A stretch of 64,000 nucleotides of DNA from positions 496,001 through 560,000 of the forward strand of contig NZ_CP069247.1 of assembly GCF_021065005.1 (NCBI RefSeq), written 5' to 3'. Under the pieces are notes generated by a model. That model worked only from the letters and a program-made list of their open reading frames with translations, was not told the DNA's origin and did not search any database. Position 1 is the stretch's first letter. The number at the start of each line of letters is the position of its first letter. Source of the stretch: Candidatus Gromoviella agglomerans (GTDB lineage Bacteria; Pseudomonadota; Alphaproteobacteria; CAJXXZ01; G021065005). The position numbers and the translations under genes are program-made. Positions 59,663-61,339 of the stretch are shown piece by piece.

Positions 59663-60106
59663 TTAATCCAAATCATATACTTGCAGTTCTGAAAAATTTG
59701 TCTTCAATTCTGAGAGAATATCTTTAAGGTTATTTTCTTTGGAAGAATTGTAAAAAATCCATGATTCAAAAGCAAAGTTATACGTGTTTTTCAATTCAGA
59801 TAATTCAAAGCTCCAAGCAATTCCAGTTTTTTCTATTAGAAACAGCTTAAATTTGTCGATAATTTGTTGATTTTTTTCGCAGAAAAATATTATATGTCCA
59901 TATTTAAATTCAATTAAGAAAAAGTCATTAAGTATAAATGAGTATAATATTGGTTCACGAGACTCTCTCACAAGGATTACGATTTCTTCAAATCTGGACT
60001 TCTCATTGAGGACTATTCGTTCGTTTAAGATCATAATAGAAGGCTTTTTGCTCGCTGTTTCGTAACTGGTGTTTTCATTAATAGTATTATTGGTGTTTTT
60101 GTTTAA
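59663..60106 (-). CDS. dnaX: DnaX tau-specific C-terminal part, in the -1 frame of dnaX
   Basis: The frame is open without a stop from 60106, inside the T run at the end of dnaX, through 147 codons to TAA at 59663. The first ~24 residues (LNKNTNNTINENTSYETASK) look like a flexible linker. The rest resembles the C-terminal domain of DnaX/tau: ILVRESREPILYSFILNDFF, KYGHIIFFCEKN, FLIEKTGIAWSFEL (family: LxxWTGRRWxV), and an end with LKTNFSELQVYDLD (family: VLxxFPGAxIxxV). The first ATG is only at 60034, without a Shine-Dalgarno site. I infer that it is made by frameshifting from dnaX; a decayed or mis-sequenced dnaX are the alternatives. Confidence 0.7.
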   Translation of the reverse strand, partial: LNKNTNNTINENTSYETASKKPSIMILNERIVLNEKSRFEEIVILVRESREPILYSFILNDFFLIEFKYGHIIFFCEKNQQIIDKFKLFLIEKTGIAWSFELSELKNTYNFAFESWIFYNSSKENNLKDILSELKTNFSELQVYDLD

Positions 60107-60113
60107 AAAAAAA
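60103..60113 (-). promoter_or_regulatory. Slippery T9 run with abutting stop codon in dnaX (candidate frameshift site)
   Basis: On the minus strand the zero frame reads GTT TTT TTT TAA. The heptamer T TTT TTT (60112-60106) allows both tRNA-Phe to re-pair one base back, after which TTA AAC continues the -1 frame. The stop in the A site would pause the ribosome. Nine T in a row also permit transcriptional slippage. I see no strong downstream hairpin. Confidence 0.6.
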
Positions 60114-61218
60114 CACTCTTATTATCTTTGAAACTTATAGAATTTGATTCTAAGTATAGTATTCTTATTAGAATTATCTCAAACGCAGAAGTCGCATCAG
60201 AAGCTGTTTTTATGTCTTTTTCACCGCTTAGAAGCATGCTCCAGATTCTTAATAAATCGTCAAGTTTATATTTTTGTAAAAGTTGGTCGTAATCTTTGCT
60301 CCATTCATGTGGTGTTTCATATGATCCAATTTTGCTATCATCAGCTTTTGCCTTTACAGCGTAAGACATTATATCAAGCAGATCATGAATTACTTGAATT
60401 GGACTAAACCTTTCTTTTGTTTCATCAAATATTTGAAGAAGATTTTGCATATCACCTTCCAATATACAGCGAAAAATTCCCATTACAAGCGCATAATCGA
60501 TCAAAAACACTTGATTTATGTTTGAAGTATCGATTGTATCTGATGTTGTTGACAAAATTATTTGTTCTAGCATAGATAGTGCATCTCTCATTGATCCTTC
60601 CGATCGTTTGCATATTATTTTCAGAGCATCTTCACTTACTTTTTTTCCTTCCAAACTGCATATTTCTTTAAGATGAATTAGCATGTCATTTGGTTTTATA
60701 ATCTCAAGTTCAAAGTCCATGCATCTGGATATTATCGTAGATGGAACTTTGTTTAATTCTGTAGTCGCAAAGATGAATTTTACGTGAATTGGGGGTTCTT
60801 CGATTATTTTGAGCAAAGCATTGAATGCACTTTTAGATAGCATATGCACTTCATCAATTATGAACACCTTATATGTTAAATGAGTAGGAGAATAGTAGCT
60901 GCTATCTATGATTTTGCGAACATCATCAACTCCTGTATTGCTCGCGGCGTCTATTTCAATTATATCAACACTTGACTTATCCAAACAGGCTTTGCATTGA
61001 TTACATGGTAAAGTTTGTCCATTTACATTCAAGCAGTTGAAAGCTCTTGCCAAAATGCGTGCTAGAGTGGTTTTACCAGTACCTCTAATGCCAGAAAAAA
61101 TAAACGCACTGGGTAACATTTTTGATCTTATACCATTTTTGATAATTTCAATTACTATATTTTGACCAACAACCTTCTCTATGCAATCGGGACGATATTT
61201 TAAAAACAAGCTACTCAT
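60103..61218 (-). CDS. dnaX: DNA polymerase III clamp loader subunit gamma (zero-frame dnaX)
   Basis: DnaX is the ATPase subunit of the clamp loader. The Walker A motif is FSGIRGTGKTTLA, the zinc site is FNCLNV with PCNQCKAC, and Walker B is FIIDEVHMLS. SRCMDFEL is the sensor region. The 371-residue frame covers the AAA+ and collar domains (I-III) and ends KSVFF at a TAA that interrupts a run of nine T. AGAGGG precedes the ATG. The gene for 4.5S RNA lies directly upstream, an order seen in several bacteria. The full -1 frameshift product would have about 518 residues. Confidence 0.94.
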   Translation of the reverse strand: MSSLFLKYRPDCIEKVVGQNIVIEIIKNGIRSKMLPSAFIFSGIRGTGKTTLARILARAFNCLNVNGQTLPCNQCKACLDKSSVDIIEIDAASNTGVDDVRKIIDSSYYSPTHLTYKVFIIDEVHMLSKSAFNALLKIIEEPPIHVKFIFATTELNKVPSTIISRCMDFELEIIKPNDMLIHLKEICSLEGKKVSEDALKIICKRSEGSMRDALSMLEQIILSTTSDTIDTSNINQVFLIDYALVMGIFRCILEGDMQNLLQIFDETKERFSPIQVIHDLLDIMSYAVKAKADDSKIGSYETPHEWSKDYDQLLQKYKLDDLLRIWSMLLSGEKDIKTASDATSAFEIILIRILYLESNSISFKDNKSVFF

Positions 61219-61243
61219 TGAACCCTCTCTTTATCAAATAAAC

Positions 61244-61333
61244 GGGCTATTTTACGGACCTGTTCTTCAATTTCTTGTCTGCTTTCTTCCGAATCTGAAC
61301 CATTAAAAAGAGAAAAACACCCCGAAACAACCC
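61244..61333 (-). ncRNA. ffs: Signal recognition particle 4.5S RNA
   Basis: The minus strand at 61297-61279 reads CAGATTCGGAAGAAAGCAG, which is the Ffh-binding core of 4.5S RNA (E. coli CAGGTCCGGAAGGAAGCAG) with its GGAA tetraloop. The flanks pair as a long hairpin: GGGTTGTTT with AAATAGCCC-type pairing in the outer stem, then CGGG with TCCG, and GTTTTTC with GAAGAAC. The ends are estimated from the outermost pairs, giving about 90 bases. TATGAT at 61340-61345 lies 6 bases before the 5' end as a -10. It is directly upstream of dnaX. Confidence 0.85.
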
Positions 61334-61339
61334 AAATCG

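Follow-up and report, generated by a model that had tools for sequence, protein, structure and literature searches.

The clamp-loader proteins gamma and tau are made from one gene, dnaX, by ribosomal frameshifting, transcriptional slippage or proteolysis, depending on the bacterium. Candidatus Gromoviella agglomerans is an endosymbiont that lives inside protists and has a reduced genome, which consists of one contig of 589,967 bases with 32.2% GC. We analyzed a window of 64,000 nucleotides of this contig; "the window" means this whole stretch of DNA. The dnaX frame in the window closes at a run of nine T's (T9), and another frame opens in the same run. Is this gene broken, or are two proteins made from it? 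A first-pass annotation, made from the sequence alone, had proposed that gamma and tau both arise from this gene by a -1 shift at the run. The best-supported reading of the sequence is that one dnaX would probably give gamma and tau through slippage on the T9 run. The features of the locus are collected in Table 1.

Table 1. Features of the dnaX locus, with positions in the window
Feature	Position	Strand	Description
dnaX zero frame	61218..60103	-	ATG at 61218, TAA at 60103, 371 codons; gamma-like clamp-loader subunit of 371 aa with Pfam and NCBIfam matches
T9 run, proposed slippage site	60105..60113	-	A9 on the plus strand; the zero-frame TAA takes its last T
-1 frame ORF	60106..59663	-	147 codons and a stop (59663-59665); opens TTA AAC AAA AAC (LNKN); linker of ~38 residues, then DUF3646 with C-terminal helix
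First ATG of the tail frame	60034..60032	-	68 nt past the zero-frame stop; no Shine-Dalgarno motif; possible independent start
8-bp inverted repeat GTGTTTTT...AAAAACAC	60093..60116	-	overlaps the T9 run; z of the region -0.36
Bacterial small SRP (4.5S) RNA gene	61238..61336	-	45.2 bits (gathering score 40); directly upstream of dnaX

The zero frame encodes an ordinary DnaX that ends at the T9 run

The zero frame ended with AAG AGT GTT TTT TTT TAA (...K S V F F stop). The first-pass annotation had placed this end at residue 371, after the AAA+ and collar domains; its coordinates and codons were right, but it had left the strand, which is minus, unstated. The 371-aa protein contained AAA+ domain I, lid domain II, and collar domain III. 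It matched TIGR02397 (dnaX_nterm) of NCBIfam with 375 bits, and DNA_pol3_delta2 (PF13177), DNAX_ATPase_lid (PF22608), and DNA_pol3_gamma3 (PF12169) of Pfam, all above their curated cut-offs. With the AAA+, lid, and collar domains of a clamp-loader subunit, this part is an ordinary DnaX.

Domain III ended at about residue 357, and the T9 run began 14 residues further on. The frame change sits at the gamma/tau boundary, where tau goes on in other bacteria. With nine T's, the run has the length (at least nine A's or T's) of runs prone to transcriptional slippage. The sequence GTTTTTTTTTAA was present in a single copy in the whole genome. A search of genome contigs with the DnaX N-terminal protein returned a distant Burkholderiaceae locus as its sole match. 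The dnaE gene of the same genome was intact and encoded 1142 aa.

The end of the 4.5S RNA gene and the ATG of dnaX were 19 bases apart on the same strand, suggesting that dnaX mRNA may come from a processed common transcript.

The -1 frame encodes a tau C-terminal domain

From the T run, the -1 frame was open for 147 codons, as the first-pass annotation had reported. Its suggestion that this tail resembles the tau C-terminus was followed up with profile searches. The tail matched PF12362 (DnaX gamma/tau C-terminus) with an E-value of 2.3e-4, the match being below the gathering score, and aligned to the DnaX model NF006585 (616 positions) between positions 467 and 548. A DUF3646 profile was built from 23 DnaX tails, without the tail under study. 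It gave the tail 38.9 bits, whereas none of 2,000 shuffles of the tail exceeded 8.1 bits and no further ORF of at least 60 aa in the genome scored above 10.3 bits. The hhalign probability was 96.8. The residues L54, L90, and W98, invariant in an alignment of eight proteins, were all present in the tail. In an alignment of 33 proteins, W98 was still invariant, and the homology of the tail extended to the natural C-terminus. These results identified the tail as a genuine C-terminal domain of tau (DUF3646).

The tail was also modeled using AlphaFold2, and residues 41-100 formed a core with pLDDT of 92-97. A Foldseek search of 350,542 PDB chains placed 2aya (E. coli tau domain V) at the top, with a probability of 0.84 and an E-value of 0.15; this fold match of a predicted structure is weak, and corroborates the identity of the tail as a tau C-domain without proving it. 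The tail profile had no match among PDB sequences.

An open frame of this length is seldom found by chance in this genome: only 7 of 2,414 wrong-frame windows of 147 codons were open. The codon signal of the tail was 0.072, the best of its six frames, compared with 0.18 ± 0.07 for genes and -0.03 for wrong frames. The ratio of tail-core identity to N-terminal identity was 0.61. For intact or split relatives it was 0.41-0.70, indicating that the tail has diverged as expected for a fast-evolving gene. Thus, the tail, open to its natural C-terminus and at a ratio of 0.61, shows neither the decay nor the faster evolution of a pseudogene. A young frameshift would look identical, so the intactness of the tail rules out old decay only.

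Relatives and the possibility of a recent frameshift

The closest relatives compared were seven order-mates (G001-G007), none of them of the same family. The DnaX of all seven lacked DUF3646, indicating that the lineage is able to live without this domain. In the tree, the window DnaX grouped with those of G003 and G005 with support of 99/99, on long branches. Therefore, we considered that the frameshift may be real but young. The order would be shedding the tail, only gamma would matter, and the 147-codon frame would be a pseudogene remnant, perhaps a leaky one. The seven order-mates and the grouping with G003 and G005 are in its favour, as are the below-average codon signal of the tail and the fact that indels in homopolymers are known to initiate erosion in endosymbionts (PMC3017870). 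However, the 147 codons of the tail contain no stop and extend to its natural C-terminus, and its divergence is no greater than the N-terminal part predicts.

The order-mates G003 and G005 bear on this point in another way. Both have short in-frame tails, which end with FPNGVEMYL and FPAAKVLY, and this FP end motif also closes longer alphaproteobacterial tails. The window gene attains an end of this FPxxxV type only via the -1 frame. This suggests, without proof, that the end is needed and the frame is used. We consider it unlikely that the tail is only a remnant.

The DUF3646 core was also lost in other DnaX proteins (L060-L066, L070, and L089-L091). A short C-terminal FPxxxV motif was kept in L062, L064, L070, and L089-L091. 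Its retention after the loss of the core suggests that the end motif is an essential polymerase contact. The C-terminal length of DnaE was tried as a test of co-evolution and set aside, as it was not clean.

Homopolymer runs in the genome

A simpler explanation of the split is a sequencing or assembly error. The true run would be T10, and dnaX would be an uninterrupted gene of 518 codons that makes tau only. Indel errors are commonest at homopolymers, and one wrong base would suffice for the apparent break. We searched the genome for similar breaks. It contained 38 A/T runs of at least nine bases, most of them within predicted ORFs, but the genes with the other in-gene runs stayed open. dnaX was the sole ORF of at least 100 codons that ended at or near such a run with a shifted frame open for at least 60 codons. 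That it is the single such break argues against generally bad homopolymer calls in this genome. In addition, the break coincides with the gamma/tau boundary and the stop abuts the run, and other Alphaproteobacteria have split dnaX genes too, including all examined genomes of one order (see below). An error at this run is therefore quite improbable.

Two ORF ends at shorter runs, T8 and A8 (200967 and 401062), were rejected as further cases, since they look like separate genes; one pair had different domains, and the other had no matches.

A/T runs of at least nine bases occurred at no more than half of the expected frequency, in genes and between genes alike. Their scarcity points to a mutational length ceiling, not to coding selection. 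Depletion of 9-mers in genes as a sign of selection against slippage was dropped, since intergenic DNA was equally depleted; for the same reason, the rarity of these runs is no evidence for slippage.

Finally, the tail could be translated separately from the ATG at 60034, giving gamma and a free tau C-domain of 123 aa as two proteins. This ATG (tail residue 25) is located just ahead of the domain start (at about residue 38). The first-pass annotation had noted that it has no ribosome-binding site; no Shine-Dalgarno motif was found there, but such motifs are scarce in this genome (before 20% of ATG genes and 12% of internal ATGs), so its absence is weak and non-decisive evidence. Separate translation is nonetheless very hard to credit. 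Ahead of the ATG, the tail frame stays open across the linker as far as the T run and on into dnaX, a continuity for which a separate gene would have no need. In 82 of the 83 same-strand pairs of overlapping ORFs, the downstream start is at most 32 nt beyond the stop or upstream of it, and only in the dnaX pair is it further away, at 68 nt. The established role of tau is to tether the polymerase to the clamp loader, and a tau domain on its own could not do this.

The proposed route to the -1 frame

As assembled, the zero frame stops at the run and the tail behind it is intact. The -1 frame tau tail starts from a slippage-prone run with the zero-frame stop close by, and by this architecture the window dnaX belongs to the two-ORF kind; the base (T) and the lineage are different. 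Production of gamma and tau by slippage on this run would proceed as follows. A U9 run read as written would lead to a stop at the abutting TAA and give gamma (371 aa). RNA polymerase would add one U in some transcripts (U10 in the mRNA), which is the favoured route to the -1 frame. A ribosomal -1 slip on U_UUU_UUU would be a less likely route, and a mixture of the two is possible. The shifted reading (...VFF-LNKNTNNT...) would give tau of 371 + 147 = 518 aa. By analogy with E. coli tau domain V, the DUF3646 domain of tau would couple polymerase and clamp loader. RNAs one U shorter or two U's longer would reach a stop five codons on (...KQKHQ), again giving a gamma-like protein.

The stimulators of ribosomal frameshifting were searched for around the run. 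The sequence upstream of the T9 run contained no Shine-Dalgarno-like stimulator, and folds of the downstream sequence had z values of +0.93 and +0.47, revealing no stem-loop stimulator. The locus thus has neither the stimulators of an E. coli-type programmed -1 frameshift nor its type of heptamer, being U_UUU_UUU instead of the A_AAA_AAG type. In E. coli, frameshifting at U_UUU_UUU is far weaker than at A_AAA_AAG (PMC5009743). Of 249 T runs with at least eight bases, 4 had arms comparable to the 8-bp inverted repeat, compared with 3 of 600 random segments. The repeat was rejected as a stimulator: it is not significant, and it can form only once the run is transcribed.

Runs of nine bases are the usual threshold for slippage, and the U run of Shigella mxiE yields a longer product (PMC1088944). 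In Buchnera, which also has a reduced genome, RNA-polymerase insertions at homopolymers were measured, and that RNA study reported no restored reading frame (PMC5574713). The nine-base threshold, the mxiE U run, the Buchnera insertions, the lack of ribosomal stimulators, and the weakness of U_UUU_UUU together favour transcriptional slippage. RNA-polymerase slippage is more likely, fitting the site better than ribosomal shifting. The first-pass proposal was partly supported: two products by T9 slippage remain the best-supported reading, with a genuine, undecayed tail and the sole case of its kind in the genome, and the use of T_TTT_TTT as a ribosomal heptamer is doubtful.

Split dnaX in other Alphaproteobacteria

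Another alphaproteobacterial order, that of genome G012, was represented by 15 genomes with a full dnaX N-terminal part (L069 and L071-L084). dnaX was split in all 15, with an open frame of just 398-429 aa. Every one of them had an A9 or A10 run in the zero-frame phase AAA AAA AAG, followed by a stop a few codons on; the phase was checked by script for 14 and by direct reading for L081. The tail was in the -1 frame and contained a full-length DUF3646-type domain in 14 of the 15. Neither a Shine-Dalgarno motif nor a downstream structure was consistently present at the A9/A10 sites of this order. In G112, which belongs to another family, the dnaX frame changed at an A5G5 site. Three other candidates for split dnaX (G114, G131, and G073) were rejected because their genes are located at contig ends.

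The exception in the tail domain was L081 (G399). Its -1 tail was only 67 aa long; most of DUF3646 was deleted and the C-terminal FP motif was kept. L081 represents a stage between the full and the minimal tails.

In the tree, the split genes of this order formed their own clade (support 100/96), apart from the window gene; the deep nodes were weak. This placement implies that split dnaX probably has more than one origin in Alphaproteobacteria. We also considered a common ancestry of the T9 site and the A9/A10 order; as the tree places them apart, separate origins are more likely, without being proven. A limited search of the literature found no mention of a repeated origin of split dnaX in Alphaproteobacteria.

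A broader scenario can be put forward tentatively, and we regard it as possible rather than probable. Recoding-dependent dnaX would have arisen several times in Alphaproteobacteria (in the A9/A10 order, in the T9 endosymbiont, and in a third lineage with A5G5), RNA-polymerase slippage would set the gamma:tau ratio, and the gamma-only dnaX of the order-mates could easily have come about once the second ORF was lost.

Comparison with known systems

Two-ORF dnaX genes that need recoding for tau were described in 2013 in Chlorobi and others, those with a homopolymer having runs of 7-10 A's (Antonov et al. 2013, PMC3711429). Similar to these genes, the window gene would give gamma unshifted, and a homopolymer marks the point where its tau tail opens in the -1 frame; slippage by RNA polymerase was proposed for them, as here. 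A difference is that the window run consists of nine T's, instead of 7-10 A's, and is located in an alphaproteobacterial endosymbiont.

dnaX of Thermus thermophilus (A9) also has a nine-base run, makes gamma and tau from one gene, and has stops in two of the three frames soon after the run. However, its run is of A's and its tau is the unslipped single ORF, whereas tau of the window gene would need slippage on a run of T's. Similar to E. coli dnaX, the proposed shift is in the -1 direction, the site is past domain III, and a stop is right behind it. E. coli uses a ribosomal -1 shift at A_AAA_AAG, while the window gene has a U heptamer and no Shine-Dalgarno or stem-loop stimulator; shifting gives the short product in E. 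coli and would give the long one here. The parallel with E. coli and Thermus drawn in the first-pass annotation is thus inverted: tau is unslipped there, and gamma is unslipped here.

For the U run, the nearest likeness is mxiE of Shigella flexneri, in which insertion in a U run fuses two overlapping ORFs into a longer protein (PMC1088944); mxiE encodes a transcription activator, whereas dnaX is a replication gene. For the setting, it is dnaX of Blochmannia vafer and B. floridanus, reduced-genome symbionts with a homopolymer frameshift for which transcriptional rescue was proposed. In Blochmannia, the frameshift comes after the normal site of ribosomal slippage, within the part of the gene specific to tau (PMC3017870). 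Caulobacter DnaX is also alphaproteobacterial, has a DUF3646 tail, and gives gamma and tau from one gene, but gamma is cut from tau by proteolysis with no change of frame (PMC5009743).

Implications

The split also carries a warning: automated annotation would label this essential dnaX as broken. If the slippage proposed here is true, a poly-U site with slippage-dependent tau would be a further convergent solution for making both proteins, found in an alphaproteobacterium, while the described alphaproteobacterial case, Caulobacter, uses proteolysis. The A9/A10 order and the T9 gene would together form a natural series in which to look for selection on the product ratio. The case bears on the question of whether a frameshift at a homopolymer serves as a regulatory device in a reduced genome or marks the onset of tau loss.
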